Shown piece by piece: positions 10,506-41,717 of a stretch of 50,400 nucleotides of DNA. Location of the stretch: the IMG/VR virus record IMGVR_UViG_3300032053_006749, positions 1 through 50,400 of that record; one strand, given 5' to 3'. The DNA is from a virus. The notes beneath the pieces were generated by a model. That model had not been told where the DNA came from. It did no database searches and saw only the letters and a program-made list of their open reading frames with translations. Each line of letters starts with the position of its first letter. The stretch's first letter is position 1. The position numbers were made by a program, and so were the translations under genes.

Positions 10506-11588
10506 ATGAATCTAACCCCTGAACAACGTGCCAAACTCTCCCTGATCCTAAAGAACAAGGGCAGTGAGGTAAAAGAGGTCCATGATAATTGGCGTCGGAG
10601 CACAAACTCCGATGTCCTAATCGTTGATGGAACGAATACGTTCATTCGTTGTTGGTCTGCCAACCCCGCAATGGACGACAACGGAAACCACACAGGCGGC
10701 ATCGTAGGATTCCTAAAATCCGTTGGTTACGCCATAAAACTTCTCGGCCCCACTCGCTGCATAATCATATTTGATGGCATTGGCGGGTCATACAAGCGAC
10801 GACAACTCTTTCCTGAGTATAAAGAGCGTCGTAAGAATAAAATACGCCTGAATCGGGCATATGAAGAGATGTCTGAAGCGACGACGGAAGAAGAAAGTAT
10901 GCGTAAGCAATACATTCGCTTGACACACTACCTTCAAATTCTTCCCGTCAATATGCTGTCCATAGACCACGTTGAAGCAGATGATGTTATTGCTTTTCTT
11001 GCCACTGATTATTTCAAGGCGTCGAGAAAAGTTTTCATTATGTCGTCCGATAAGGATTTCTTGCAGCTATGTACAGGTAACGTCAATGTCTATTCGCCTA
11101 CGAAGAAGCGCATTTACGGACCAGCGGAAGTTCTTGCCGACTATCAAATTCACCCCAACAATTTTGTTCTATTCAGAGCACTTGACGGCGATGACTCGGA
11201 TAATGTCAATGGTATTGAAGGTGCCGGACCAAAGACGATTGTCAAACATTTCCCGTGGTTGAATGAAGAGTCTCTACATACCGTAGATGAACTTGTATCT
11301 CATGCAGTCAATTTGAGAAACAAGTACAAGGTTTGTGAGAACATTGCTTCTGGAAAAGCAATTCTGGATAGAAATGTTGCGCTTATGCAACTCAAGGAAA
11401 CCGCTCTTACTACCATTGCCCAGCTGCATTGCATTGAATGTTTGGACACAAAGAAAATACCACAGATGGATCGAGGCGCATTTTTCAAGTTGGTTCGGGA
11501 CGACATGATTGATAACAATCTACCGAACCATGTCAATTGGGTTGGAGAAGTGTTTGGTCCATTGGATAGTGTTACAAGAACCGAATAA
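10506..11588 (+). CDS. rnh: RNase H / 5'-3' exonuclease (FEN family, T4 Rnh-like)
   Basis: A 360-residue flap endonuclease/5'-3' exonuclease that removes RNA primers. Acidic metal ligands are visible in order: LIVDGTNTF (first Asp), CIIIFDG (second), DHVEADDVIAF (Glu-Ala-Asp-Asp), MSSDKDF (Asp-Lys-Asp), and ALDGDDSDNVNG followed by GAGPKT, the helix-hairpin-helix. The RRQLFPEYKERRKNK stretch is the arch-region helix. The length is slightly above T4 Rnh (305). ATG 10506 is preferred to TTG 10500; a loose GGAAG lies upstream. The stop overlaps the next start by one base (TAATG), so the MoaD-like gene is translationally coupled. Confidence 0.85.
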   Translation: MNLTPEQRAKLSLILKNKGSEVKEVHDNWRRSTNSDVLIVDGTNTFIRCWSANPAMDDNGNHTGGIVGFLKSVGYAIKLLGPTRCIIIFDGIGGSYKRRQLFPEYKERRKNKIRLNRAYEEMSEATTEEESMRKQYIRLTHYLQILPVNMLSIDHVEADDVIAFLATDYFKASRKVFIMSSDKDFLQLCTGNVNVYSPTKKRIYGPAEVLADYQIHPNNFVLFRALDGDDSDNVNGIEGAGPKTIVKHFPWLNEESLHTVDELVSHAVNLRNKYKVCENIASGKAILDRNVALMQLKETALTTIAQLHCIECLDTKKIPQMDRGAFFKLVRDDMIDNNLPNHVNWVGEVFGPLDSVTRTE

Positions 11589-11863
11589 TGAATACCATTT
11601 TGATACCGGAGCAACTCCGAAAGGTTGTCGGCGGCGAACAGAGTCTAACTATGGAACTCACAAGCATAGAAGATTTGATTGCTCAACTTTCCCATAAGTA
11701 TCCCAACATTCGTGGGCGACTCATCAACGAAGAAACTGGTGAGTTCAACAAATTTGTCAACATCTACGTGAATGGTGAAGACATTCGATTTCTAAATTCT
11801 ACAAAAACTGAAGTCAAAGATGGCGACGAGATAAGTATCGTTCCAGCTGTGGCAGGAGGATAA
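11588..11863 (+). CDS. MoaD/ThiS-family ubiquitin-like small protein ending in Gly-Gly
   Basis: A 91-residue beta-grasp protein. In sulfur carriers such as MoaD and ThiS, the C-terminal glycine is adenylated by an E1-like enzyme and loaded with sulfur, or in related systems conjugated to proteins. Here the family pattern is clear: SIEDLIAQLSHKYPNIRGRL, then FVNIYVNGEDIRFL, then TEVKDGDEISIVPAVAGG ending exactly at Gly-Gly. No E1 (MoeB/ThiF) or JAB protease is seen in this window, so activation would depend on the host or on genes elsewhere. The GGA GGA codons for the last glycines also form the ribosome site for the next gene. Coupling to the exonuclease gene by a one-base overlap is odd for a metabolic gene. 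Confidence 0.78.
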   Translation: MNTILIPEQLRKVVGGEQSLTMELTSIEDLIAQLSHKYPNIRGRLINEETGEFNKFVNIYVNGEDIRFLNSTKTEVKDGDEISIVPAVAGG

Positions 11864-22428: not shown

Positions 22429-22434
22429 CATGTG

Positions 22435-23601
22435 ATGCAAGATTTTTATTTCAGTGACGAATTGATTGGCAGAGGATTGCCAGTGCTGTTGAAAAACGGG
22501 GCAATCGCCAAGCAACGATTGATAAACTACCTCGGAAAACTGCTGCTGGAACGAAACTACGTGCCATTGTCTTCTCCCCACATTGGAAACATTGCCCTAT
22601 TCAAGAAGAGTGGGCATTATCCTTTCTACAAAGATTCCATGTTCCCTATTATCCGTCAACCATCGGAGGAAACGGGAGATTACAGTGAGTTTTGTCTCAA
22701 GCCAATGAATTGCCCGTTCCATATTATGGCCTACCAAAATATGGGTGTGGTTTCGTATAAAGAACTGCCCATCAAATTTTACGAGTTCGGGCAGGTGTAC
22801 CGTTATGAAGATTCTGGTGCAATCAACGGTTTGTATCGTCTCCGATCCTTTACACAGGATGATGGTCATATTTTCTGTTCCATGAATCAGATTCGTGAGA
22901 TTGTAGATGAATGTATTGATCTGATCAAACTGATCTGTGACAAGTTTCGGTTGAAGTTGGCCATCAAGTATTCAAAGCGGGACTTGGCCATCAGCGAAAA
23001 GTATATCGGTTCCCTTGACAGTTGGGCCGCCGCCCAAGACATTTTGAAAGCAGTCTGTTTTGCCAAGTTTGGGAATGATTATGTTGAGGATGCTGGCGGT
23101 GCGGCATTTTATGGGCCCAAGATTGATTTTGTGGCCAAGGATAAACTCAATCGGGAATGGCAACTTGGAACGATTCAACTGGATTTCAACTTGCCCGAAC
23201 AGTTTGGACTCAATTATATCGGATCGGACAACCTTGAGGTTCCAGTACTAATCCACCGTGCCTTGCTCGGCTCTTTGGAGCGGTTTCTAGGTATTCTTTT
23301 GGATAACAACTTGCTGCCGATGGCACTGCAACCGTTCAACATGGGTGTGATATGGCTAGGTGAGAACCGGGATTACTACAACCGAGTAGTTAACCGTTTG
23401 AAACAGTTGGAGGTTTATCCAACGGTCATAGAACACCCTCGGAATCTCAGCGAAGCGATGGCGAAACTATATTCCAAAGGGTTATCCAACATTGCGATCA
23501 TCGGGAAACGGGAAGAATCACATCAAATGGTCAACTTCAACAAAGAACATTTTTGCATTAGCGCATATTTTGAAGAAGTTGAGAAACTATTTCAGCTTTG
23601 A
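22435..23601 (+). CDS. thrS: Minimal threonyl-tRNA synthetase (catalytic and anticodon domains only)
   Basis: A 388-residue class II aminoacyl-tRNA synthetase of the ThrRS type, charging tRNA-Thr. KPMNCPFHIMAYQ, FYEFGQVYRYEDSGAINGLYR (motif 2) and LRSFTQDDGHIFC are typical. The three zinc ligands that select threonine in bacterial ThrRS appear to be C93, H145 and H274. Motif 3 is VLIHRALLGSLERF with R275. The last 100 residues fit the anticodon-binding domain (VIWLGENRDYY onward). The N-terminal TGS and editing domains of the usual 640-residue enzyme are absent, so mischarged serine could not be cleared in cis. ATG 22435 is chosen; GTG 22432 is in frame. A phage-encoded ThrRS is rare. Confidence 0.85.
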   Translation: MQDFYFSDELIGRGLPVLLKNGAIAKQRLINYLGKLLLERNYVPLSSPHIGNIALFKKSGHYPFYKDSMFPIIRQPSEETGDYSEFCLKPMNCPFHIMAYQNMGVVSYKELPIKFYEFGQVYRYEDSGAINGLYRLRSFTQDDGHIFCSMNQIREIVDECIDLIKLICDKFRLKLAIKYSKRDLAISEKYIGSLDSWAAAQDILKAVCFAKFGNDYVEDAGGAAFYGPKIDFVAKDKLNREWQLGTIQLDFNLPEQFGLNYIGSDNLEVPVLIHRALLGSLERFLGILLDNNLLPMALQPFNMGVIWLGENRDYYNRVVNRLKQLEVYPTVIEHPRNLSEAMAKLYSKGLSNIAIIGKREESHQMVNFNKEHFCISAYFEEVEKLFQL

Positions 23602-27401: not shown

Positions 27402-28298
27402 TCACAAGATTCTCAAATTTGCTTCGTTGATTGGTGGGTTTGTCACATTTATTTTGTCTCGCAATCCCGGCGACTGAGAAATGCTTGTGGGTATCTGACT
27501 TGGGTTAGCCGGATGAACGAATTCTCCCCATTTGTCAACAAACCTCTTCAATTCAATCTGGTCATTCTGTTGGCGAACGATTTCTTTATCTTTGTTCTCC
27601 TGCTTCCACCATTGGATTCCACGACTGCTTGTACATGTGAAATGATATACCATTGCATCCCAACATTGTTCAAACATGACCCCATTCATTGCCAATCGCA
27701 ATGCGATGTCACTGTCTTCCCGAGATTTTACGAAACTGACATCATGCCCACCAATATCATTCCAAACATGCTTGTAAAGGGTGAATGGGGCGAAGAAAAA
27801 GTTGGTCAACTTGTTGGCGTCTTTATTGAATTCAGCAAATTTCAGAAATGCTTCGTAGTTGAACTCTTCGGGGACGAACCCAAAGTTTTCCACGTAGTTC
27901 ACTGGATTGCTATGTGTTGAATGGAGGGGCGGTTCTACTCGTGTGCTGCAAAGTATGATGTTGTCTTTGACATGGGCAGCGAGCTTCTTATCATATCCAA
28001 GACAAATTATCATATCTGACTGTAGATAGCTAACAACCTCAGTCTTTGCTTTGGAGAACATGTAGTTGATGTTCCCAGCATATCCAACGGGGTTGCCATC
28101 ATTCTTTATGATAGTCAGGTTTGGAAAGAGTGCCTTCTGCTCCAATAACATCTCCGTCGTGCCTTGGTTGTCCGAATCAACGAAGATAATTATGTCGTGG
28201 AGATTTATGTCAATACCATTCAGCAAGGATTGGAGCAACAACTCAATGTAGTGTTTCTCGTGACGAGACGTGTTTATGCAGAATGTGAATTTATTCAT
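27402..28298 (-). CDS. Family 2-type glycosyltransferase
   Basis: A 298-residue GT-A fold transferase. Early strands FTFCINTSRH and IIIFVDSDNQGT precede the donor-binding region; YLQSDMIICLGYD contains the DxD-like acidic site region, and GGHDVSFVKSREDSDIALRL has the ED-type catalytic base expected in GT2 enzymes. WDAMVYHF follows. It would transfer a sugar from a nucleotide donor to a growing glycan. It is the most downstream member of the glycan island, overlapping the SDR gene by four bases. Confidence 0.7.
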   Translation of the reverse strand: MNKFTFCINTSRHEKHYIELLLQSLLNGIDINLHDIIIFVDSDNQGTTEMLLEQKALFPNLTIIKNDGNPVGYAGNINYMFSKAKTEVVSYLQSDMIICLGYDKKLAAHVKDNIILCSTRVEPPLHSTHSNPVNYVENFGFVPEEFNYEAFLKFAEFNKDANKLTNFFFAPFTLYKHVWNDIGGHDVSFVKSREDSDIALRLAMNGVMFEQCWDAMVYHFTCTSSRGIQWWKQENKDKEIVRQQNDQIELKRFVDKWGEFVHPANPSQIPTSISQSPGLRDKINVTNPPINEANLRIL

Positions 28299-29119
28299 AG
28301 CAATTGTTGTATGGTTTTTTTGATTCCTTCATCCAGCCCAATGAGCGGTAATCTTAGATTGTCCAGTATAACCCCACACCCTGTATATTCATTTTGAAAA
28401 TCGGGCGGAACCATAATTTCTGGATAATCTTTGACCCCGGCATGTTTGTAGATTTTGTGAGCAATGGAGATGAGGTCATGCTTCTCTTTATACACCAAAT
28501 TAAGATGTTGTGGATGGTATGATTTGAGCGTGTATTTTATTGCTGTTGCCATGTCATCCAAGTAGAAGAAGTCCATTCTACGGTTGCGAACAATAGATAT
28601 TGGAAGTCCTTGCTTGATTCTGTGCAGAGATTGGCGAATAAAACGAGACATCGGTTCGTCATGGTTGAAGCAACCAAATGACCTAAGAACTCGCATGTTA
28701 TTCTTGATTCGTCGGGTTATGATGTTTTTAGACAATCCATAGGCGTCTATTGGCCATTCGACATAAACATCACTTTCACGTTTCTCTATGATTGGCCATC
28801 GGCGGTCAAACTCGGCACCCGAACCAATCAAAATAATTGGGTCTTGATTACTCCCCGCCACCATCAAATTTTCAAACATCTCAATGTTGGCACAATAGAT
28901 GTCATTGAAAGATTGATTGGGGTCATTGAAAACTCCTACGGCAGCGCAATGAATAGTAGCATCAACTCTTGCTGTTCTTAGATACGCCCTTAAACCTTCT
29001 AGGTCACGCATATCCAATTCAGATCGGGTGGGAGCAAGAACGTCATATCCCTGCTCTCTAAAAATGCGGGTTAAATTGCGTCCGATAAATCCACTACCAC
29101 CTGTGATTAAGAGTTTCAC
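28295..29119 (-). CDS. NAD-dependent epimerase/dehydratase or reductase (SDR)
   Basis: A 274-residue extended SDR enzyme. The Rossmann glycine motif is LLITGGSGFIGRNL (residues 3-16), and YGLSK supplies the catalytic Tyr-x-x-x-Lys near 147-151. DFFYLDDMATAI is the conserved substrate-binding segment. It most resembles nucleotide-sugar reductases or epimerases of the GDP-fucose synthase/4-reductase type. It could complete the last step of sugar synthesis after the TPP enzyme, its upstream neighbour, with which it overlaps by four bases. Confidence 0.75.
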   Translation of the reverse strand: MKLLITGGSGFIGRNLTRIFREQGYDVLAPTRSELDMRDLEGLRAYLRTARVDATIHCAAVGVFNDPNQSFNDIYCANIEMFENLMVAGSNQDPIILIGSGAEFDRRWPIIEKRESDVYVEWPIDAYGLSKNIITRRIKNNMRVLRSFGCFNHDEPMSRFIRQSLHRIKQGLPISIVRNRRMDFFYLDDMATAIKYTLKSYHPQHLNLVYKEKHDLISIAHKIYKHAGVKDYPEIMVPPDFQNEYTGCGVILDNLRLPLIGLDEGIKKTIQQLL

Positions 29120-29649
29120 TTTGTCTTACAGAAGTCGGCATTTTCAACCAAGATGCTGCTGTATTTGGTGTCGTGGATGGCATATTTGTAGGCGGGAAGG
29201 ATGTCGGAAGCTTCGTCCAACCGCACGACATTTATAGTTTTGCACATGGACTTGAATGCACTGGTAAAATCGCCCTTGTGTTGGTCTTGGGGGTCTATGG
29301 GCACTACGCTACCGATGGCAACCCGAATGATGACCTTGGGAACAAACTCGCCGTCAGACATGAGTGGCAATTTGTCAAGATGATTGATAATTTGGTCTGT
29401 GGCGCAAATGAGAAAGTTCCAACGAGGATAGACTGCAATCGGGAGGAATCCTTTAAGTGCTAATCCAGTGCAAACTCCGAGTTGAAGATTCTCGGCAATC
29501 GGAAATTCATATTTGAGTTCATCTGGAATATGAGCGAGGGAATCATACAGACCCGTGCCGGGATAGCGGACAGATTGCCCGACAAACATTGCCTTGGGTT
29601 GCTGCGAAAGATAGGTCTGCGCCTTCTTTATTTCTTGATAGTAACTCAT
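29116..29649 (-). CDS. TPP enzyme small subunit, E1-beta/transketolase Pyr-domain-like
   Basis: A 177-residue protein corresponding to the pyrimidine-binding domain of E1-beta-type thiamine-diphosphate enzymes. FPIAENLQLGVCTGLALKG carries the Glu that activates the cofactor, and VYPRWNFLICATDQIINHL matches the following helix. The usual transketolase C-terminal domain (about 120 residues) is absent. Together with the next gene upstream (29651-30241) it would form a split alpha/beta enzyme. Such pairs are known to attach two-carbon units to keto sugars, as in AviB1/AviB2 for avilamycin. Substrate here is inferred, not shown. Confidence 0.72.
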   Translation of the reverse strand: MSYYQEIKKAQTYLSQQPKAMFVGQSVRYPGTGLYDSLAHIPDELKYEFPIAENLQLGVCTGLALKGFLPIAVYPRWNFLICATDQIINHLDKLPLMSDGEFVPKVIIRVAIGSVVPIDPQDQHKGDFTSAFKSMCKTINVVRLDEASDILPAYKYAIHDTKYSSILVENADFCKTK

Positions 29650-29650
29650 G

Positions 29651-30241
29651 TTAAAATTGAACCCTCAGTCCTGCGCCAGCGTGCGGGTAAACAGTATTCT
29701 TGTATTTGTAGTACAGAATGCTTGGTTCTGACTCCGAACCATCGCCCCACACTTCACGGGTAGGAGTTTCTACTGACAGTCCGTTGTCTTCCACGACCCA
29801 TTTGATTGGCAGGTTGTGTCCACGGGCATATTTGAATGCTTCGTGGAATGCGCCCGTCTCCATAGACATGTCGCCCACAAAGCACCACACACGGTTTGGT
29901 TTGCCTTCCAATTTCAGTCCCCAAGCAATGCCAGCCGCAATGGATGGTATTCCGCCTACGATGGAACTGCAAATGACGTTGTGCTCGGCAATACACATCA
30001 CCATTGATTTGCCTTTGAGGATGCGCTCTTTCAGTTCCGCTGATGGAACACCTTTTAAGAGACATTGGTAATGGTTCCTCCATGTGCAACAAATCCAGTC
30101 ATCTTTTTGGACATGCTTGAAAATCTCAATGATGGGGTCTTCGTTTCCGCTATACAAATGGATGGGAGCACGAATCTTTCCGTCGTTGAAATTTTGGGCA
30201 ATGTCCGTCTCAAATGCTATCAGTTCTTCTTTCGTTACCAT
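29651..30241 (-). CDS. TPP enzyme large subunit, E1-alpha-like PP domain
   Basis: A 196-residue protein carrying the diphosphate-binding half of a thiamine-diphosphate enzyme. The GD-x28-DN cofactor motif is visible: FVGDMSMETGAFHEAF (G123-D124) through VVEDN (N153). GIPSIAAGIAWGLKL matches the E1-alpha GxPxxxGxA segment. Typical E1-alpha subunits have about 330 residues, so this is a trimmed form. It ends two bases before the beta-like gene starts and overlaps the 4,6-dehydratase gene by seven bases. The pair is presumably one heteromeric enzyme acting on a keto-sugar intermediate. Confidence 0.75.
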   Translation of the reverse strand: MVTKEELIAFETDIAQNFNDGKIRAPIHLYSGNEDPIIEIFKHVQKDDWICCTWRNHYQCLLKGVPSAELKERILKGKSMVMCIAEHNVICSSIVGGIPSIAAGIAWGLKLEGKPNRVWCFVGDMSMETGAFHEAFKYARGHNLPIKWVVEDNGLSVETPTREVWGDGSESEPSILYYKYKNTVYPHAGAGLRVQF

Positions 30242-31194
30242 ATGAAGTTATTTCTGTAGTATTCTACCACAAGCGGAAGCTCTTTGTCAAGCTCGCAGAG
30301 GTTGTTCCAACCAAGACTGCGGAGTTTGCTGTCGTCTAGGCTGTAGCGCACGTCCTGCCCATCCCGATGATAGGAAAAGTCACAGTGGTCAGCAATGTTT
30401 ACCACGTTTCCTTGAAACAGCGTTATAACCTTCGTTACTACATCAATATTGGAAAGCTCGCAGTTTCCGGACACATTGTAAATCTGATTGTTGCACTTTC
30501 CATCGTCGTTGTTGTGGATGATGGTTGTAACTGCATAAGCGGTATCCTTGGCGTGCAACCAAACTCGTTGCGGTTTGCCGTGATTGTGGAGTGGAATTTT
30601 TTTGCCTAGCAATTGTAGTTTGCATGTCTTTGGAATCAGTTTCTCTGGATACTGACCGATTCCGTAGTTGTTGGTTGGGCGAACCAAAATGTAAGGCACC
30701 TTGAATGTGCGTCCCCAAGCAGTAATAAGCATGTCTGCCGCTGCTTTGGTCGCTGAATATGGGTTGCTTGGTTTGAGAAGGTCGGTCTCGGTGTGAGAAC
30801 CTTCGTGAATGTCTCCATACACTTCGTCAGTGCTGAAATGAAGCAACGTCGGCATACGATAACGTTCCTTCTGGCGAATCAGTTCCAAGAGGTTGTGAAC
30901 ACCGTTGACGTTTGAATGTAGGAACTCGTCGCTGCTCACGATGGAATTGTCAACATGAGATTCGGCGGCAGTATTGATGACGTAATCACAGTCATACAAC
31001 ATTTTCAAGTCATTGATGTCGGATTGGATGAATTTGAAATTGGGGTTCTTTTCAAACTCTACCAGCTTGTGTGGCTGGGCGGCATATGTTATCTTGTCAA
31101 CTCCAATAACATACCATCCTTCATAAAGGCAGGCTTCGGTGACATAAGCACCGATGAACCCGAGACAACCCGTAACATAAACGACTTTTTTCAT
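30235..31194 (-). CDS. NDP-glucose 4,6-dehydratase
   Basis: A 319-residue SDR enzyme converting NDP-glucose to the 4-keto-6-deoxy sugar. GCLGFIGAYVTEA is the NAD-binding motif; HFSTDEVYGD is the hallmark of this family (Thr-Asp-Glu active site), and YSATKAAADML provides Tyr-x-x-x-Lys. LVRPTNNYGIGQYPEKLIP and WLHAKDTAYAV are conserved substrate-binding segments of RfbB-type enzymes. Whether the nucleotide is dTDP or CDP cannot be judged; the neighbouring RfbH-like gene favours CDP. The start follows the AAGTT-ATG context seen in several genes. Confidence 0.82.
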   Translation of the reverse strand: MKKVVYVTGCLGFIGAYVTEACLYEGWYVIGVDKITYAAQPHKLVEFEKNPNFKFIQSDINDLKMLYDCDYVINTAAESHVDNSIVSSDEFLHSNVNGVHNLLELIRQKERYRMPTLLHFSTDEVYGDIHEGSHTETDLLKPSNPYSATKAAADMLITAWGRTFKVPYILVRPTNNYGIGQYPEKLIPKTCKLQLLGKKIPLHNHGKPQRVWLHAKDTAYAVTTIIHNNDDGKCNNQIYNVSGNCELSNIDVVTKVITLFQGNVVNIADHCDFSYHRDGQDVRYSLDDSKLRSLGWNNLCELDKELPLVVEYYRNNFIW

Positions 31195-31197
31195 AAC

Positions 31198-31851
31198 TTA
31201 TTCTGCTGGTTGATAGTTTGCTTCCAACTCTTCCTTGGAATACGTATATGCCTTCTTCCTCAAAAATACCTGCCATCCAGCAGCAACGAGTTCAATATGA
31301 CCAACATATGCTGCGAGAAAAGCATCAATTGCCAATTTTGGTTTTTGCTTCTCATCGGTGGTGTGAATTCCCCACCCATAATCATCAAAAATGAGGATAC
31401 CACCGTCTTTCAGAAGACTCCATGCGAGCACGCCGTCACTGAGCACATCAATCGCCAAGTGTGAACCATCAATGTAGATGTAGTCGGCACTTTTCTCTGG
31501 AAAGGCGGTGCGGAGAAGGTCGTAGGAACGTCCCTTGTGAAACTTGACATTTTTGCCGACATAAGGCGCAATGTTTTCTTTCAGAAACTCGGTTTCATTG
31601 ATGTCAATACAGTGGTGAACGCTACCTTCGCCGTTGGCAATGGCATCGGCACAAAACACAGTACAATCACCATTCAAGCATCCAATTTCAATGCCAGTGA
31701 CGTTGGGTTTGCCAACAAGATGTCCCAAATGGTTTTGCCACTGTGGAATCCACTTCTCAAAGAAGTTTGACCCGAAGAATCCTTCGGGACGCTTCATGTG
31801 GGCAGGATAGTCGTAGGTGGTGATGTCTCTTACTAATGTGTATTCGCTCAT
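31198..31851 (-). CDS. Class I methyltransferase
   Basis: A 217-residue SAM-dependent methyltransferase of the Methyltransf_24 type. VTGIEIGCLNGDCTVFCADA is motif I (SAM-binding glycine loop), HHCIDINE motif II, YIYIDGSHLAIDVLSD the post-I acidic motif, and GGILIFDDYGWG motif IV. Likely methylates a sugar hydroxyl or amine. It overlaps the RfbH-like gene by four bases and so belongs to the same transcription and translation unit. Confidence 0.72.
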   Translation of the reverse strand: MSEYTLVRDITTYDYPAHMKRPEGFFGSNFFEKWIPQWQNHLGHLVGKPNVTGIEIGCLNGDCTVFCADAIANGEGSVHHCIDINETEFLKENIAPYVGKNVKFHKGRSYDLLRTAFPEKSADYIYIDGSHLAIDVLSDGVLAWSLLKDGGILIFDDYGWGIHTTDEKQKPKLAIDAFLAAYVGHIELVAAGWQVFLRKKAYTYSKEELEANYQPAE

Positions 31852-33158
31852 ATGTTTTTGAAAAATTGATCCACGTTCTCTTTGACATAATCCAGTTGTT
31901 GTGAAGTAATAACTGGACTTGTGCCCAAGAAAAGAGTATCGGTTGTAACTTTGGTTGCGACAGTAAATGCCCGTGCTTCCTCGGCAGAAGCAAGGTGACT
32001 GTATGCGGGTTGTAGGAGGAGGTTTCCTCCAAAATAGTTTCGGGTCTGAATCTTATGATCTTCCATGTAAGTCGTAAAGTGTGAACGGCGAAACGGAGCA
32101 CCATTTTTTACGGTAACTGGAAATGCAAACCACGATGGGTCTGAATTTGGGGTTGCCTTGTGAATATGGAAAAACTCTTCATACGGCGTGAAGATTTCAG
32201 TCAGACGCTTGTGGTTTGCCTTGCGTCCTGCATGGATGGATGGCAACTTATCCAATTGAGCCAGTCCAATGGAGCACTGAACCTCAATCGGTTTGAGATT
32301 GTATCCGATGTTGTCATAGATATACTTGTGGTCAAACACTTCATCGGGTACGGCGGGCAACCACTTACTGAAGCGGCAACCACAACTTCCCTTGGTTGAA
32401 AGGTTTGCCTTCCTGCCGACACAGAAACATCCACGACCCCATTCACGGAAACTGCGTGCAAGCTTTTCCAACTCTTCATTCTTACACGCCACAAACCCAC
32501 CCTCGCCCATAGTCATGTGGTGAGCAGGATAAAAGGAGCACGTTGCCATTTCTCCATCTTGTCCAGTAGGTTTCCCATTGTATGTTGACCCAAGGGCGTC
32601 ACAGCAGTCTTCGAGGAAGATGAGATTGTATTTCTTTACGATTTCCATCACTCGGTCCATGTTTGGAGGATTTCCCAATACATGAGCGAATGTAACCGCT
32701 TTGGCACCTTCCGATGCTGCTTTCTCCATCTGGTCAAGGTTGATATTCAGAGTGTCCAATTCAATATCCACAAAGCGTGGAGTAAGACCAACTTGAAGGA
32801 TTGGATTAAAGGTAGTGGGAAATCCTGCCACTGGCACGATTACACGGTCAGACTCTTTGAGACCGAAATACTTCTTGGCAGTTGCCATCATAAGCAGGTT
32901 GGAACTTGACCCACTGTTGGTCACAATCCCATACTCTTTGCCTAGCAGCTTCGGGAATCGCTTTTCAAATTTGATGGCATCTTCTCCAAGCACCAACCAT
33001 TCATTCAACAGCGTTTCAACTGCATTGGTGAATTCTGTAGAGTCAAAGAATGGACCGGCATACTGAACCCAATCTTTGCCGGGAGTCCATGTCTTGGCAG
33101 CGTGTTTTGCTGTCATATACTCTGCTACGAGTTTCAAAATTTCTTCTTTAGTTGCCAT
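31848..33158 (-). CDS. rfbH: RfbH-like 4-keto-6-deoxyhexose 3-dehydrase (PLP/PMP, Fe-S)
   Basis: A 436-residue member of the DegT/DnrJ/EryC1/StrS fold. The usual PLP-binding lysine is replaced by histidine: SFYPAHHMTMGEGG (H213/H214), the signature of 3-dehydrases such as RfbH (E1) and ColD. A cysteine set GRGCFCVGRK and GSCGCRF (C244, C246, C259, C261) matches the region of the [2Fe-2S] cluster of RfbH; ColD lacks it. The reaction removes the 3-hydroxyl of a CDP-4-keto-6-deoxyhexose, giving 3,6-dideoxy sugars, and needs a reductase (E3) not found in the window. Start 33158 is chosen (overlap with the upstream gene 11 bases) over 33197. Confidence 0.8.
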   Translation of the reverse strand: MATKEEILKLVAEYMTAKHAAKTWTPGKDWVQYAGPFFDSTEFTNAVETLLNEWLVLGEDAIKFEKRFPKLLGKEYGIVTNSGSSSNLLMMATAKKYFGLKESDRVIVPVAGFPTTFNPILQVGLTPRFVDIELDTLNINLDQMEKAASEGAKAVTFAHVLGNPPNMDRVMEIVKKYNLIFLEDCCDALGSTYNGKPTGQDGEMATCSFYPAHHMTMGEGGFVACKNEELEKLARSFREWGRGCFCVGRKANLSTKGSCGCRFSKWLPAVPDEVFDHKYIYDNIGYNLKPIEVQCSIGLAQLDKLPSIHAGRKANHKRLTEIFTPYEEFFHIHKATPNSDPSWFAFPVTVKNGAPFRRSHFTTYMEDHKIQTRNYFGGNLLLQPAYSHLASAEEARAFTVATKVTTDTLFLGTSPVITSQQLDYVKENVDQFFKNI

Positions 33159-34005
33159 TTCGATAGTGTGTGATAAGACGTTTGAGTGTTGCATCAATGT
33201 CGTATTGTTGTGTGAACCCCAACCCCTTCAGTTTGGTCGTATCCAAATACGAATGCCTTACTTGAACGATGTTGTGGAAATTAGTCGGTTCAATCTGAAC
33301 TATTTTGGACGCCGAACCCGCATATTCAATCGTCTTATTGATAATGTCCAAGAATCGCAGCGGAATGCCACTTCCAATGTTGTAAATCTGATTGACAGGT
33401 GCTTTGTCCATGCACAACTTCATTGCTGTGCAAACGTCGTCCACGTAGATGTAATCACGTAGCACGTCCCCGCCATAATAGAGTTCCACGTCTCGGTTAT
33501 GAACAATTTCTTTTACGAAGTGCTGTAGAGCATTCTTCTTTCGTGAAATCTTACCATCTCCCTCGCCGAGCACATTGGCGAGACGAAAGATTCTGTACTT
33601 GTATCCAAACGTATTACACCAACAAATGAGCATCTGTTCTGCACAGCGTTTGGTGATGGAATAAAATCCAGTTGGATTGCACTGTGAGAAATCTTCTCGG
33701 AATGGAATTTCATTGTTCTGACCATAGACGAACCACGAACTTACGAAGTTGATGACAGGAGGTTCTTCAAACGTTGTTCCTTTGATAGCGTCTAGCACTT
33801 CCATCAACACCGTAAGATTGGTATCAATGTCAACATGAAGGTCTTTGTGGACATTATAATTGTCAATTGTGCTGATTAAGTAGAGTATGTTCGGAGAGTA
33901 GGGAGTTCTAAAATCACGACCAATTCGCTCACTGTCGGCAGGAAACATCTGGCAAAAACGATTGCCAATAAATCCGCTTGATCCAAATACAGAGGTTCTG
34001 CTCAT
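33148..34005 (-). CDS. NAD-dependent sugar reductase/epimerase (SDR, CDP-abequose synthase-like)
   Basis: A 285-residue extended SDR enzyme. SVFGSSGFIGNRFC is the nucleotide-binding motif; FVSSWFVYGQ is the active-site strand; FYSITKRCAEQML gives Tyr-x-x-x-Lys; RDYIYVDDVCTAM is the substrate segment. Placed directly upstream of the RfbH-like gene with an 11-base overlap, it probably reduces or epimerises the 3,6-dideoxy intermediate, as RfbJ-type enzymes do. Specificity inferred from context. Confidence 0.72.
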   Translation of the reverse strand: MSRTSVFGSSGFIGNRFCQMFPADSERIGRDFRTPYSPNILYLISTIDNYNVHKDLHVDIDTNLTVLMEVLDAIKGTTFEEPPVINFVSSWFVYGQNNEIPFREDFSQCNPTGFYSITKRCAEQMLICWCNTFGYKYRIFRLANVLGEGDGKISRKKNALQHFVKEIVHNRDVELYYGGDVLRDYIYVDDVCTAMKLCMDKAPVNQIYNIGSGIPLRFLDIINKTIEYAGSASKIVQIEPTNFHNIVQVRHSYLDTTKLKGLGFTQQYDIDATLKRLITHYRNGN

Positions 34006-35027
34006 AACATTTTTAGGAGGGTAAGAATCTTCTTCGCCCTATGCACATACATATGGTTGTTCAGGCAGATGTCATATGCTTTTTTCGTTAAAATATCCCT
34101 CTCCTCGGGGTGTACGAGGTAATAATCAATGCGGTCTGTCCACTCCTTCTCCCCAACCACGGGGATAGAGTCTCCAAAGAAGTCTGTAACCAGTGGATTG
34201 TCTGAAATCTGGAAGTTTCCGCTCAGAGCAATCTCAAAAACACGTCCATTAACCTCTAGGCGATACTCTAGGTCATCTGCCTTCTCCATTTTGTGCAGCG
34301 GATAGTGAAAATTGATGTTTACCTTGGTGGAATTGTAGATGTTATTCAGATGTTCGTGTCCAATATGTGGATACTGAATCCCCTTGTAATTGTATCCTCC
34401 ACCGAAAATTCCACGATACCCCTTGTTCAGCACTGGATGTAAATACTTGTCTTCGCCACGGTATCCATGCGACAATTGACCCACGAAACTGACATCGTTT
34501 ACCCTCTCAACATTTGTTGGGAAGAAGTCTTTTTTGTGGGCAGACAGTTGAACGTGTCCGAAGTTCATTCCACGAACATCAAACTCCTTTTTGGAATGGG
34601 TGTGTTGAATTGATAGTTCAAACCAAAGGTCAACCAAATCCTTCGCCGTTTCAAAGTGTGGACGCCAATGGTCGCACAACACGGCGACTTTGGTGGTTGG
34701 ATAAGTCTTCTTGTAGAGACGCAAGTCTTCAATCATGGCGGGCGACAAGTCGTGCATGATAAGCAATTCTACCTGAGCATCTACTTCAAGGATACGGTAT
34801 TGTGCAGCGGGCAAGCGATAGGCAGTCCATCCAAGGTCTTCAAATCCTCTGGCCCAACCTTCACCTGTGGGGATGAAGTGCATAAATGGTTCATATACTA
34901 TTACTTTCATTGTTTGTTTAAGTGGTTCCCACGGACTTGGACTTTCTGTGCAACCACAACGTTTCCCATTGTCAGTCTCTTTTACAACCTCTTTGCACCG
35001 GCGACAATACCATTTTTGTTCATTCAT
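34002..35027 (-). CDS. Glycosyltransferase-like protein with N-terminal zinc ribbon
   Basis: A 341-residue protein (ATG 35027 overlaps the previous stop). Residues about 4-30 hold a four-cysteine cluster, WYCRRCKEVV then KRCGCTE, a small zinc ribbon. The rest resembles GT-B type transferases of the CgeB/DUF3880-like kind: VIVYEPFMHFIPTGEGWARG, VSFVGQLSHGYRG, VNINFHYPL and EVNGRVFEIALSG (the EALA-like helix binding the donor phosphates). Likely attaches a sugar to the virion or surface glycan. The zinc ribbon addition is unusual. Confidence 0.62.
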   Translation of the reverse strand: MNEQKWYCRRCKEVVKETDNGKRCGCTESPSPWEPLKQTMKVIVYEPFMHFIPTGEGWARGFEDLGWTAYRLPAAQYRILEVDAQVELLIMHDLSPAMIEDLRLYKKTYPTTKVAVLCDHWRPHFETAKDLVDLWFELSIQHTHSKKEFDVRGMNFGHVQLSAHKKDFFPTNVERVNDVSFVGQLSHGYRGEDKYLHPVLNKGYRGIFGGGYNYKGIQYPHIGHEHLNNIYNSTKVNINFHYPLHKMEKADDLEYRLEVNGRVFEIALSGNFQISDNPLVTDFFGDSIPVVGEKEWTDRIDYYLVHPEERDILTKKAYDICLNNHMYVHRAKKILTLLKML

Positions 35028-36544
35028 ACTTTTATCCAATCTGGTAGCACCAAGTCGTCAATGTTGAATCCTTCGGCAATCATAGCACGTCCGAACCAAG
35101 TTGAAGGCACGAATACCTTCTTGTCGGTGCGAGTGTTGAGATACGCTGCCCACCACCCAAAGCTGCTGTTGGAGATAATTAGATTTTTGTATCCGCTCAT
35201 TTTATAGAGTTCGGACCAATCCTCATCTTTACCCATGTATTGAATGATGACATCAGAATCGAATACAAGGTTCTCTTCACACCATTTGGGGTCGTCACTG
35301 AAAATGGCAACGTCCTTACAACCTGCCAATTTTACTGCCTTAGCAAAATAATCCGGCGTCAGTTGTGGGTGATGGTCGGGAAACTTGTAGTAATCACCCC
35401 TTCTTACCTGTATAGCGGTAATATCCCGTGTTTCTATCCTATGTGGTAGGAACAATTTCTGAATATACTCCCGGTTGTGGTCAAAATACCTCCATGATTG
35501 GAAGTGCCCCAGCAATTTGAGATTGGGTTTGAAAGGAATTGCTTCGTAGGTGCAAAGGTCTCGTCGGTGAACCTCCTTAACTGGTAGATTCTTGTCGAAC
35601 ACAATTTTGCTGAAAATGTTGCTCGTGTAGTTGTTCACATTACGTCCTTGGTTTGGGAGAATGTGTTCCTCATTATTGACCATGAGCACTGCGCCATTGT
35701 CTTTGGCAAGCGAAGCAGCGGCAGCAATCTCAAACATTTGGTTTCCCAATCCACCCGCCAGAGTGGGTGTTACGAATGAAATTGTTTCGTAAGGATTGCG
35801 GGAACGAACCACCATCTCAACACTTGGTCCAAAGGTTGCCATTTGGTCGGTATGCGCTCTTCCAAAATTGTTTTGTTGCGAATGATTGTATAGGTAAATT
35901 GGTTCCTTGACTCGGAATACTCGTTCTGGTGGGCATAGTTCCAAGGCAGCAAACATAATTGCCAAGTCGTCGGGTCCGACCAAGAACTTGTCATTGAAAA
36001 GCAAATCCTTTTTGTCAATCGCTTTCCATACAAACCCCCGCATGGTTTTTAGATGGGAAGACCTCCACGTATCCTTGCGATATGCTTTGGCAGCAATCAC
36101 GTCGGCGGGAAACTCTGAGTTCTGTGGATATGGTTCTACTACTTTGTCTCCACCTTCCCATACCAACATTCCGCCATAAGTCATCCAACATCCAGATTTG
36201 TTATAGATTTCATTCAGATAGGATAGGACGTTCTCAGCATAGAACATGTCATCTCCATCAAGGAACACGAGAATGTCATTGTCTTGGAGTTCAACCCCAA
36301 CATTGGATTCAACCTTGGAGTAGAACCACGTCTTGTGTTGGCGTGACATACTGCCATAGACGCTAAACCGAGGGTCGTCCTTGACCTTTGCCGTTGCCTT
36401 CTTCAATGTCTCATCCTTGGAGCAATCATCAAAGTAAATGACCTTGTAGTGAGGGTAGTCTTGACTCAGGACGGATCCGAGGTTACTTTCAACCCATTGC
36501 TCGTTGTTATAGCTACCTATCAGTATTATGAAGCGGTTATTCAT
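35024..36544 (-). CDS. Two-domain glycosyltransferase: GT2 plus GT11 (fucosyltransferase-like)
   Basis: A 506-residue fusion. Residues 1-230 are a GT2 domain: FIILIGSYNNEQWVESNL, IYFDDCSKDET and LVFLDGDDMFY (DGDD donor/metal site). Residues about 250-506 are GT11: TPTLAGGLGNQMFEIAAA, TAIQVRRGDYY (the HxRRxDY-like donor site), VAIFSDDPKWC, and NLIISNSSFGWWAAYLN (the SNSSFSWW signature). GT11 enzymes transfer L-fucose in alpha-1,2 linkage. The fusion suggests two consecutive linkages made by one protein. Neighbouring genes overlap at both ends. Confidence 0.8.
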   Translation of the reverse strand: MNNRFIILIGSYNNEQWVESNLGSVLSQDYPHYKVIYFDDCSKDETLKKATAKVKDDPRFSVYGSMSRQHKTWFYSKVESNVGVELQDNDILVFLDGDDMFYAENVLSYLNEIYNKSGCWMTYGGMLVWEGGDKVVEPYPQNSEFPADVIAAKAYRKDTWRSSHLKTMRGFVWKAIDKKDLLFNDKFLVGPDDLAIMFAALELCPPERVFRVKEPIYLYNHSQQNNFGRAHTDQMATFGPSVEMVVRSRNPYETISFVTPTLAGGLGNQMFEIAAAASLAKDNGAVLMVNNEEHILPNQGRNVNNYTSNIFSKIVFDKNLPVKEVHRRDLCTYEAIPFKPNLKLLGHFQSWRYFDHNREYIQKLFLPHRIETRDITAIQVRRGDYYKFPDHHPQLTPDYFAKAVKLAGCKDVAIFSDDPKWCEENLVFDSDVIIQYMGKDEDWSELYKMSGYKNLIISNSSFGWWAAYLNTRTDKKVFVPSTWFGRAMIAEGFNIDDLVLPDWIKV

Positions 36545-39659: not shown

Positions 39660-40344
39660 TTTGTCCTCGCAGTTGTTGTATCATTTCCGGTGTTGCTTCG
39701 CTAAACACTCGGTCTTTTTGTTTCAGCAACTTGACCGAAGAATGAGGGTTGAGTTTGAAATTGTATTTCTCCCGCACCTGCTTGGACCACTTGACATCTT
39801 CCGACTCTCCCCAACTCAAAGTTTCATCCAAGGGGAACTCTTGCATAACTCTACGTTTGGCAATCCAATATGCGCCCGAGATATACATGAATTTGGACAA
39901 GTCGCTCACATCGTATGGTAGCAATGATTGAAGATTGGGACTGCCATCAGGAGTGATGTCGTGTGGCCACAAAGTCCAATCACGGAAACGTGTTCCATCA
40001 GCATTTAAGATGGGAGTCATACACACATCAAAGCAACCGCCGAATATCTCTTCAAAGTTTCGATACCAATCCTTTTGGAGGGTAACATAGTCGTGCATGT
40101 AAACAATATTTTCAAAGCGTGCTTGCTCGGTGATGATATTCTTCTTGCGAGTTATCCATGCTTTCTTCTTGGTCTCGTCAAATGAAATCAAGCGGAGAGG
40201 TCCATTCTCATAGTCTTGGTCCCCGCCCACCACAATAACCTCATAGGCATCATCGTGGATATTCTCTGCCTCAATAGAAGCGAGCACTCGTTGGAGAGAG
40301 TCACGAGATCCGGGAGCGGTTATGATGCCAAAGGTGAAATTCAT
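39631..40344 (-). CDS. GT2-like glycosyltransferase
   Basis: A 237-residue GT-A protein. NFTFGIITAPGSRDSLQRVL, YEVIVVGGDQDYEN and IVYMHDYVTLQKDWY (an H/D acidic site in place of DxD) are followed by GAYWIAKRRVMQEFPLDE and SWGESEDVKWSKQV, the ED catalytic-base segment of this GT2 type. Its 3' end overlaps the cupin gene by 29 bases. Confidence 0.65.
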   Translation of the reverse strand: MNFTFGIITAPGSRDSLQRVLASIEAENIHDDAYEVIVVGGDQDYENGPLRLISFDETKKKAWITRKKNIITEQARFENIVYMHDYVTLQKDWYRNFEEIFGGCFDVCMTPILNADGTRFRDWTLWPHDITPDGSPNLQSLLPYDVSDLSKFMYISGAYWIAKRRVMQEFPLDETLSWGESEDVKWSKQVREKYNFKLNPHSSVKLLKQKDRVFSEATPEMIQQLRGQNEALRLEKL

Positions 40345-41717
40345 GCTTTGTATTTGTCTTGGAAGTAGGTTAAGTCTTCAGGAGTTCCAAGACCCCACAT
40401 CTTGTCAATGTGGAAAATCTTGATTCGTTTTCCATCTGCAATTGCCTCATTATAGACGGGTGCAACATAAAACTCGTTATTGACACGGAAGTTTTTTGCA
40501 ATCATCTGTTCGGCATACTTGACATAATCCGATCCTCGTTTCCAATAGTAGATTCCAACCGTCGCTTCGTTGCTAATGACTTTTTTCTCACGGACTTCCG
40601 TAACGAATCCATTATCGTCCAAGCGGACATAACTCCACTTTGGATGTGAATTGCCAAATGTGAGGATACCGCCATCAATGCCACTATCCATCATGGAATA
40701 CATGAACTCATTGCTATCCCATTCCACAAACTGGTCGGAGTTGGCAATGAGAAGAGGTTCGTCATTGTTGATGAATTCCTTGGCGAGTAAGGTAGTGCAA
40801 GCAGCACCTTCAGTTAGATGGTCCACCGTAACAACTTTGCTGCCGGGAGAAATGACACCAAGCAATTGGGGTAGATTGTATTTGGCACAGTGTTCGTCCC
40901 GCACTATGAATACATGCTCGGCGTCAACGTTGAGATTCTCAACGATGACTTGAATCATAGGTTTGTCATTGAGATTCTTAACCGCTATGAGGGGTTTGGG
41001 GAATGAATACCCCGCCGTGGCGAACCGACTGCCCGCTCCAGCCATTGGAATTAGAACTTTCATTTTGCGACCTTGCCATTTGGGTTTGTGACCAGTATTG
41101 CCTAACGCATCTGCCATTTCTTTGATGGGATGATATTGAACATCGTGGGAATCCCTTACTGCAAACAAATGCGCCCCACTGTCCACTGCTGCCTTGCGGC
41201 CAATATGAGAATCTTCGATGATGATGGTTTCCTTTGGAGATACACCCGCCTTAATCATACATTCAAGATACATCTCAACATTGGGTTTGGGATGGGTAAC
41301 GTCTTGATTGGAGAAGAAGAAATCAATGTATGGAATGAACCCCTTTTGCAGGAGCATGAGCTTTACAGTTTCACGGATGGAGTTGGATGCCACTGCCAGA
41401 ATGAATCCATCATTCTTTAGTTGACGGAGAACTTCACAGAGACGAACACTTGGTTCAAATTCTTGAATGATGGCACGGGTCTCTTGTTGTTTCTGCTTCC
41501 ATACCAAGTCGTGGGCGTCTTTCGGCAATCCCTTCTCGGCAGTAAGCATATTCAACTTCTTGGTAGTATTGAGACCGTCATATTTGGACAGGTGTTCATC
41601 TCGCCCAATAACATATTTTGGGTCAACCGTGGCCAGCGCACGGTTGAATGCTTCGTAGTGTATATCTTTTGCATCAACCAGTACTCCATCCAAGTCAAAT
41701 ACGATTAGTTTAATCAT
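40341..41717 (-). CDS. Fused HAD phosphatase/phosphoglucomutase and sugar nucleotidyltransferase
   Basis: A 458-residue two-domain enzyme. Residues 1-215 are a HAD hydrolase of the beta-phosphoglucomutase type: IVFDLDGVLVDAKDIH (nucleophile Asp and general acid), AVASNSIRETVKLML, HPKPNVEMYL and IIEDSHIGRKAA. Residues about 218-458 are an NTP-transferase: MKVLIPMAGAGSRFATAGY (nucleotide-binding loop), SFPKPLIAV (the Lys), LLIANSDQFVEWD (metal Asp) and MWGLGTPEDL. It likely prepares a sugar 1-phosphate and activates it to an NDP-sugar, the entry step of the island. Overlaps the neighbour genes by a few bases. Confidence 0.82.
   Translation of the reverse strand: MIKLIVFDLDGVLVDAKDIHYEAFNRALATVDPKYVIGRDEHLSKYDGLNTTKKLNMLTAEKGLPKDAHDLVWKQKQQETRAIIQEFEPSVRLCEVLRQLKNDGFILAVASNSIRETVKLMLLQKGFIPYIDFFFSNQDVTHPKPNVEMYLECMIKAGVSPKETIIIEDSHIGRKAAVDSGAHLFAVRDSHDVQYHPIKEMADALGNTGHKPKWQGRKMKVLIPMAGAGSRFATAGYSFPKPLIAVKNLNDKPMIQVIVENLNVDAEHVFIVRDEHCAKYNLPQLLGVISPGSKVVTVDHLTEGAACTTLLAKEFINNDEPLLIANSDQFVEWDSNEFMYSMMDSGIDGGILTFGNSHPKWSYVRLDDNGFVTEVREKKVISNEATVGIYYWKRGSDYVKYAEQMIAKNFRVNNEFYVAPVYNEAIADGKRIKIFHIDKMWGLGTPEDLTYFQDKYKA

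Follow-up and report, generated by a model that had tools for sequence, protein, structure and literature searches.

Described systems of sugar branching

The yersiniose/erwiniose pathway of Gram-negative O-antigens comprises DdhB, RfbH/E1, YerE or ErwE, and a ketoreductase. YerE and ErwE act on CDP-4-keto-3,6-dideoxyglucose, while E1-type pairs and split transketolases (TKs) have been implicated in the formation of C2 branches (PMC12247030, PMC4753412), the latter having been proposed for miharamycin. The literature draws a contrast between Gram-positive producers, which use E1-type pairs for sugar branching, and Gram-negative bacteria, which rely on a single flavoprotein, YerE (PMC4753412). 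Structures of ketone-accepting enzymes of the E1 or transketolase type have not been reported (PMC12247030).

The locus described here lies in a 50,400-nucleotide stretch of viral DNA (hereafter "the window") and shares with the yersiniose/erwiniose pathway a 4,6-dehydratase, an RfbH-type 3-dehydrase, a TPP carboligase and an SDR reductase. It differs in that a trimmed E1-type pair replaces the single AHAS-like YerE, the dehydratase is RmlB-like instead of CDP-type, neither an E3 nor a clear-type nucleotidyltransferase lies alongside, and the setting is a phage. The alpha-KADH2 branching enzymes (AviB1/AviB2, Pau11/Pau12, KbDH-alpha/beta) are likewise two-subunit E1-type TPP enzymes linked to deoxy-sugar genes, but they belong to actinomycete antibiotic pathways, as opposed to the Gram-negative/phage setting of the window pair. 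Another relative is the fused "transketolase central region" protein of cyanophages S-SM2 and P-TIM68 (phrog_34187), which carries homologous alpha and then beta domains (~41% identical in alpha) and also belongs to a phage sugar cluster; unlike the window pair, it is one fused chain, retains the GDG motif, shows neither RfbH nor the RmlB-slot synteny, and sits among heptose-type genes. This protein, already present in databases, has a phosphoheptose isomerase and a zinc alcohol dehydrogenase encoded nearby, but no dehydrase. We found no description of the gene combination reported here in the literature searched, the coverage of which was partial.

Gene content of the cassette

The set occupies positions 28295-34005 on the minus strand. 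The original prediction had listed a 4,6-dehydratase, a His-type RfbH with a cysteine cluster, two SDRs and a split E1-alpha/E1-beta pair, all of which were found there (their functions remain inferred); it missed the Methyltransf_24 protein between the RfbH and 4,6-dehydratase genes. The genes, with their neighbors, are:

35024-36544, minus strand: upstream glycosyltransferase gene, GT2 + GT11 fusion (PF00535 4e-12, PF01531 3e-18)
34002-35039, minus strand: upstream glycosyltransferase gene (PF13524 2e-16)
33148-34005, minus strand: SDR of the epimerase/reductase family, first gene of the reported set (PF01370 1.3e-28)
31848-33197, minus strand: RfbH/E1-type NDP-4-keto-6-deoxyhexose 3-dehydrase (NF011936 466.6 bits; PDB 3bcx, E 2.7e-101)
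31198-31851, minus strand: SAM methyltransferase, Methyltransf_24 (PF13578 5e-18)
30235-31194, minus strand: RmlB-like NDP-hexose 4,6-dehydratase with TDEVYG and YSATK motifs (TIGR01181 290.8 bits)
29651-30241, minus strand: TPP enzyme alpha subunit, trimmed E1-alpha, 196 aa (E1_dh 1e-16)
29116-29649, minus strand: TPP enzyme beta subunit, Pyr domain only, 177 aa (Transket_pyr)
28295-29119, minus strand: RmlD-like SDR after the TPP slot, candidate ketoreductase (PF01370 5.2e-25)
27402-28298, minus strand: family 2 glycosyltransferase, cassette end (PF00535 3.8e-10)

The predicted adjacency and translational coupling also held, as the genes overlap or abut: RmlB and alpha overlap by 7 nt, RfbH and the next gene by 4 nt, and beta and the SDR at GTGA, while alpha and beta are separated by 1 nt. 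The likely start of RfbH is an internal ATG at 33158. About ten further viral contigs carry the same genes in the same order, and so the arrangement is not due to chance. Orthologs of the first SDR were found in L009 and L209 and also, beside RfbH, in the L214 group; those of the terminal glycosyltransferase occur in L006-L009, L207 and L228. A nucleotide search of 50,697 phage records returned zero matches.

The dehydrase and the dehydratase

The RfbH-like protein passes the cut-off of the NCBIfam RfbH equivalog model (423 bits). In its alignment with 3bcx, His226 (motif SFYPAHHMTMGEGG) replaces the PLP-binding Lys and all four [2Fe-2S] cluster cysteines are matched; these cysteines recur in the relatives. 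An aminotransferase function of this DegT protein was rejected, since His226 stands where the PLP Lys would be. No Fer2 domain indicative of an E3-type reductase was detected in 11 phage records, mostly fragments; it is possible that a host reductase serves as the E3 partner. RfbH proteins of phages are already present in databases, and some phages (L211 and the L214 group) encode RfbH with no TPP enzyme in view.

For the RmlB-like protein, TIGR01181 is by far the best model, but the score remains under the cut-off of 365, and therefore the identity of the NDP is undecided; the CDP-type model yields only 63 bits. A PF00483 search for nucleotidyltransferases, positive in 2 of 12 records, was uninformative, as it missed a weak domain at window positions 40341-41717.

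The trimmed E1-type pair

Profile searches relate the alpha subunit to human pyruvate dehydrogenase (PDH) E1-alpha (1.1e-19) and the beta subunit to E1-beta (4e-14). The AF2 model of alpha (pLDDT 94) superimposes on 1ni4_A over 190 residues with Z 20.6, and that of beta (pLDDT 95) on residues 3-179 of the 329 of 3exe_B with Z 23.8; beta thus lacks the C-terminal transketolase domain. The corresponding scores against transketolase are 15.8 and 17.8, and alpha is more weakly related to the split transketolase 6yak. The TPP/Mg-binding and catalytic residues are kept (H28, R55, H57, D124 and N153 in alpha; E53 and H124 in beta), and those checked are invariant across 75-76 sequences, with the exception of D124 (65/76; Asp in the window). 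The GDG motif is altered to GDM. According to the models, both subunits adopt the PDH E1 fold with every checked TPP residue in place, although the interface between them was not modeled. Within that limit, the absence of a TPP site at the interface, which the original prediction had named as a refutation, is not borne out, nor is the second refutation it named, a closer match to an amino-sugar enzyme, given a His-type RfbH and no aminotransferase.

The comparison with AviB1/AviB2 held only in part: the E1 fold and residues agree, but the size does not (196 + 177 aa versus 325 + 345 aa in Pau11/Pau12), the beta subunit not being full-length and GDM standing for GDG. Assignment as E1 of PDH or acetoin dehydrogenase was rejected, as there is no C-terminal domain in beta and no E2; no E2-like (lipoyl) gene was present among the annotated neighbors.

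Exchange of the TPP enzyme in related phages

Gene position provides the strongest evidence for function. The slot directly behind RmlB, which starts in the window at the alpha gene, is filled in related phages by other TPP enzymes between flanking orthologs up to 88% identical. L226 retains RfbH (88% identical to the window), the methyltransferase (80%) and RmlB (82%), and L206 has the methyltransferase at the equivalent position (77%). In both, the slot holds a carboligase of the YerE/JanthE type (E 2.8e-179 to the JanthE structure 8rph, with a common CDG motif) and, after it, TIGR03215 and TIGR03217 proteins, the enzymes of 4-hydroxy-2-oxovalerate formation. L206 and L226 thus share with the yersiniose/erwiniose pathway even the type of carboligase, here with a supply of 4-hydroxy-2-oxovalerate. 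In L207, the slot is occupied by a split transketolase-like pair. The three occupants represent the three TPP classes for which keto-sugar branching is known or has been proposed, and an SDR homolog follows the slot in all three types of loci.

In our RfbH-seeded viral sample, 13 of the 15 distinct loci encode a TPP carboligase; among the YerE-like loci, RmlB is present in 55/62 and the same SDR family in 48/62. The window pair (E1_dh + Transket_pyr) does not have the single-chain TPP_enzyme_N/M/C architecture of YerE, which is found in L206 and L226, but it does share the placement of YerE-like carboligases with a 4,6-dehydratase, RfbH and a reductase, in the same slot and between the same flanks. 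This speaks for a YerE-like mode of action, not for membership in the YerE family. The claim of the original prediction that the TPP enzyme and RfbH make a C-branched deoxy sugar is supported, with donor and product inferred, and the other occupants of the slot in syntenic relatives add evidence that the prediction did not have.

The slot swap suggests that phages trade the modules that add the branch, and so diversify their sugars. We lean, with reservations, towards a bolder reading, namely a modular phage pathway for branched sugars, in which the slot between the 4,6-dehydratase and the reductase has been repeatedly refilled with unrelated TPP carboligases (a minimal E1-type pair, a JanthE/YerE-like enzyme accompanied by an aldolase and a dehydrogenase that make its donor, or a split transketolase). 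Such refilling would vary how long the C4 branch is and what chemistry it has, and the E1-type pair would be a new minimal two-subunit family of ketone carboligases that phages share with environmental bacteria. Since three TPP classes replace one another in a single conserved slot, sugar branching becomes a testable axis of glycan change driven by phages.

Proposed pathway

The gene content, the cofactor and catalytic residues, the folds and the slot shared with YerE/JanthE-like and transketolase-like enzymes are shown. On this basis we consider it likely that the cassette encodes a yersiniose-like pathway to an NDP-3,6-dideoxy-4-C-acyl sugar via a new, minimal E1-type carboligase; its activity, substrate, donor, nucleotide and product, as well as the final glycan, are inferred. 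The RmlB-like enzyme would produce an NDP-4-keto-6-deoxyhexose, from which RfbH, recharged by a host reductase, would remove the 3-OH to give an NDP-3,6-dideoxy-4-hexulose. The trimmed pair would then decarboxylate a 2-oxo acid, most likely pyruvate, and transfer the acyl unit to C4, leaving a tertiary alcohol. The SDR behind the carboligase may reduce the branch ketone or trim the stereochemistry, the methyltransferase may serve to cap a hydroxyl group, and phage glycosyltransferases would place the sugar on a host or virion glycan.

Several observations speak against this scenario: the pair lacks the beta C-terminal domain of characterized E1 enzymes and has GDM for GDG, the RmlB-like protein scores as dTDP-type whereas characterized RfbH enzymes use CDP sugars, no E3-type reductase appeared in the (mostly fragmentary) phage records, and a share of the trimmed-pair loci has no His-type dehydrase in view (see below).

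Alternative explanations

The alternative that survives best, though we regard it as unlikely, is that the pair works like a transketolase, taking a hydroxyacetyl (glycolaldehyde) unit from a ketose phosphate, so that the branch would be hydroxyacetyl or dihydroxyethyl and the rest of the pathway unchanged. In its favor are the split pair in the L207 slot, the miharamycin proposal and the relationship of alpha to 6yak; on the other hand, both window subunits are closest in sequence and fold to 2-oxo acid dehydrogenase E1.

Less probable still is that the pair does not work on the sugar itself and provides some small building block (an aldehyde, an acyl group or a precursor of heptose) that is used in another step. 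GDP-heptose genes (HddA-like kinase, GmhA, Gmd-like) adjoin the pair in other subclades, and the fused cyanophage form has its phosphoheptose isomerase and alcohol dehydrogenase neighbors without a dehydrase. However, no heptose genes are in view in the window clade, YerE/JanthE-like enzymes, which join 2-oxo acids to ketones, can take the place of the pair in the slot, a lipoyl E2 is missing, and the pair is strongly coupled to His-type dehydrases.

An ordinary amino- or dideoxy-sugar pathway, with DegT as an aminotransferase and the TPP genes as unrelated passengers or decayed, can be all but excluded: DegT proteins are mostly sugar aminotransferases and RfbH does occur without a TPP enzyme in view (L211, L214 group), but His226 and the four Fe-S cysteines, the near-invariant TPP residues and the gene order kept across phages contradict it.

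Distribution of the trimmed family

The coupling of an E1-type pair to RfbH in phages and environmental Gram-negatives, which our preferred reading interprets as sugar branching, breaks the published Gram-positive/Gram-negative division. A plasmid search recovered only distant full-length E1 proteins. In bacteria, the trimmed pair accompanies 110 His-type versus 2 Lys-type DegT proteins (110/112 near cases), against a background of 25 Lys and 3 His. A universal coupling to His-type dehydrases was not upheld, as no such dehydrase is in view at 45 of 163 trimmed-pair loci; some of these are truncated, but an RmlC/Fcl/Gmd-like subgroup is complete enough to lack the dehydrase. The family is therefore not confined to 3-deoxy sugars. 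Because no structure of a ketone-accepting enzyme of these types has been reported, so small a pair is an attractive model, and also an attractive biocatalyst for tertiary alcohols.

A second system found in this analysis, in Nitrospira, Verrucomicrobia, SAR11 and many phages, combines the same alpha/beta family with a His-type DegT dehydrase that is ColD-like (~390 aa, motif SNFSFYYAHHMSTIEGG) and differs from that of the window. It is accompanied by Gmd/Fcl-like, HddA-like and B12 radical SAM proteins, and its pairs form a separate part of the alpha/beta tree.

Gene set of the window

The window, an IMG/VR virus record of 50,400 bases, is likely a fragment of a tailed phage as judged from its RNR, RecA-like, DnaB-like and AAA proteins. 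It carries a sugar gene set spanning 36544 to 27402 on the minus strand, in which the majority of neighboring genes either abut or share a few bases. The original prediction of a 4,6-dehydratase, an RfbH-like dehydrase, two SDR reductases and a split thiamine enzyme listed the genes correctly, save for the Methyltransf_24 gene, which was left out.

Sugar genes of the window in transcription order
First gene (set starts at 36544), minus strand: GT2-GT11 fusion
Second gene, minus strand: glycosyltransferase
33148-34005, minus strand: SDR
31848-33197 (likely start 33158), minus strand: RfbH
31198-31851, minus strand: Methyltransf_24 protein
30235-31194, minus strand: RmlB-like 4,6-dehydratase
29651-30241, minus strand: TPP alpha (E1_dh)
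29116-29649, minus strand: TPP beta (Transket_pyr only)
28295-29119, minus strand: second SDR
27402-28298, minus strand: GT2

Upstream in the glycan region, a HAD hydrolase is fused to a nucleotidyltransferase-like domain (40341-41717); it could conceivably supply the NDP-sugar, or another sugar. Elsewhere, the window encodes a ThiS/MoaD-family protein with a Gly-Gly end in the phage replication region (11588-11863; PF02597, 8e-19) and a shortened class II aminoacyl-tRNA synthetase core (22432-23601; PF00587, 5e-43), probably Thr-type, although this was judged by eye only.

The trimmed TPP pair

The family profiles of alpha and beta match human PDH E1-alpha (1.1e-19) and E1-beta (4e-14), respectively, and the known cofactor and catalytic positions line up in these alignments. 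Among 75-76 diverse sequences, H28, E34, R55, H57, G123, M125 and N153 of alpha and E53 and H124 of beta are invariant, with M125 giving GDM in place of GDG; D124 of alpha is Asp in 65 of 76 sequences, including the window. The TPP-site residues that were checked are retained in both subunits; the site has not been shown as a complex. AlphaFold2 models (pLDDT 94 for alpha, 95 for beta) were superimposed with VIA-align on residues 34-269 of 1ni4_A (Z 20.6, rmsd 1.9 A, 190 residues) and residues 3-179 of 3exe_B (Z 23.8, rmsd 1.8 A, 172 residues), and from these ranges alpha is therefore an E1-alpha that stops near residue 269, while beta consists of the Pyr domain alone.

Alternative TPP enzymes in a single slot

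The viral search was seeded on RfbH, and was thus blind to TPP genes; it yielded 23 loci, about 15 of them distinct. A TPP carboligase lies within about 6 kb in 13 of the 15, and the alternative enzymes take one slot, directly behind RmlB.

TPP carboligases in RfbH-seeded viral loci
E1-type pair: L208, L209, L220, L228
YerE-like enzyme: L206, L210, L212, L213, L221, L223, L225, L226
Split transketolase-like pair: L207
None in view: L211 and the L214 group

Two loci differ from the window in slot content, L226 being otherwise 88% (RfbH), 80% (methyltransferase) and 82% (RmlB) identical to it, and L207 69% (RfbH), 70% (RmlB), 47% (SDR) and 67% (GT2). On the RmlB tree the slot type changes 12 times, against a mean of 11.9 for shuffled labels, i.e. 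without extra clustering, and in the clade of the eight nearest RmlB proteins (support 100/100) the slot is filled by an E1 pair in five cases, by a YerE-like enzyme in two and by a transketolase-like pair in one. The branches of L221 and L228 in this tree are long and unsafe. The RmlB-like gene of L221 (7275-9335) contains an apparent intein (weak PF14890 match, extra residues ~137-487), and a sugar C-methyltransferase lies behind it.

The three kinds of occupant correspond to the three TPP classes that publications tie to branched sugars, namely YerE-type decarboxylases, E1-type alpha-KADH2 pairs and transketolases (PMC12247030). The transketolase-like pair of L207 (9027-10159; 211 + 165 aa) occupies the branch-adding slot. 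The L206 enzyme has the TPP_enzyme_N/M/C architecture and matches 8rph (2.8e-179), with which it shares an unusual CDG motif; 8rph is JanthE, a YerE-like enzyme that joins 2-oxo acids, 4-hydroxy-2-oxovalerate among them, to ketones (PMC12188165), and ErwE prefers a donor of the 4-hydroxy-2-oxovalerate kind (PMC12247030). The next two genes in L206 encode an acetylating acetaldehyde dehydrogenase (TIGR03215, 308 against a curated cut-off of 282) and a 4-hydroxy-2-oxovalerate aldolase (TIGR03217, 330 against 286), which, as inferred from gene identity, together could make 4-hydroxy-2-oxovalerate. A search seeded on the L206 enzyme found 62 viral loci, with RmlB in 55, the two donor genes in 53 and 52, and SDR in 48. 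This arrangement of carboligase, dehydrogenase and aldolase behind RmlB is widespread in phages (L206 8926-12681; L226 2295-6029; L231-L292) and is likely an erwiniose-like branched-sugar cassette.

The RfbH dehydrase

With 466.6 bits, the window RfbH clears the threshold of 423 set for the NCBIfam RfbH equivalog, and it matches Yersinia E1 (3bcx, 2.7e-101). His226 stands where the PLP lysine would be, and the four [2Fe-2S] cysteines align with those of 3bcx and are retained in most of the RfbH proteins compared from other phages. The 11 phage records searched yielded no Fer2-type reductase, and therefore the electron donor is presumably, by inference, a host enzyme. The RfbH link also has a bacterial example: in a Desulfomonile MAG (L139 287-2497), an RmlD-like SDR domain has RfbH fused behind it, and a trimmed TPP pair lies about 7.5 kb away.

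Proposed pathway and novelty

The direct evidence is the identity of the genes, the residues and folds of their products, and the equivalence of the slot; the chemistry comes from family knowledge. As is generally understood for these families, RmlB would form a 4-keto-6-deoxy sugar, RfbH would remove O3 using PMP and its [2Fe-2S] cluster, the TPP carboligase would put an acyl anion on the C4 ketone, and a reductase may reduce the branch ketone. Pyruvate is the inferred donor, by analogy, given the E1 resemblance and the KbDH and AviB precedents. For the nucleotide the evidence points two ways: the dehydratase looks dTDP-type while characterized RfbH enzymes use CDP. The glycosyltransferases close by favor use of the sugar by the phage, without deciding between a virion glycan and host LPS.

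With its function inferred, the gene set belongs to a known theme, the branched deoxy-sugar pathway. Phage RfbH (Synechococcus phages) and a fused alpha-beta protein of cyanophages are already in databases under generic names, and an alpha homolog occurs in only 10 records of the phage collection searched. The literature searched, with partial coverage, yielded no account of RfbH coupled to a trimmed E1-type pair, or of TPP carboligases swapped in one slot.

Distribution of the trimmed pair and His-type dehydrases

The trimmed pair is common: there are 162 confirmed viral matches to it, and GTDB genomes contain at least 126 (Nitrospira, Verrucomicrobia, Pelagibacter, SAR116, Piscinibacter and others). 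The window alpha/beta falls within a seven-row, all-viral clade with 100% SH-aLRT (row L011_9143 of this tree was joined to the wrong beta and is to be disregarded), which keeps the upstream dehydrase followed by RmlB-alpha-beta-SDR wherever upstream sequence exists.

Where a DegT-family protein lies no more than 2.5 kb from a trimmed pair, its PLP position is His in 110 cases and Lys in two, against 25 Lys and three His in the background of 15 host genomes, where all three His proteins bear the same TPP-linked motif. The loci are partly redundant, so that these counts indicate linkage and not independent events. A His-type dehydrase is in view at 118 of 163 trimmed-pair loci; in the other 45 none is in view, and these include the cyanophage fusion as well as a subgroup that has RmlC, Fcl and Gmd-like genes. 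The DegT dehydrase frame of L205 (records of L011 and L012) contains one internal TGA.

Two phages (L012 8001-16631; L043 1530-9988) each carry two different trimmed pairs, one belonging to an RfbH-RmlB set and the other to a set that includes a B12-binding radical SAM protein. Bacterial trimmed pairs with a ColD-like His dehydrase (L086-L165) repeatedly adjoin B12-binding radical SAM, HddA-like kinase, GmhA and Gmd/Fcl-like genes, and may represent a branched or modified heptose pathway.
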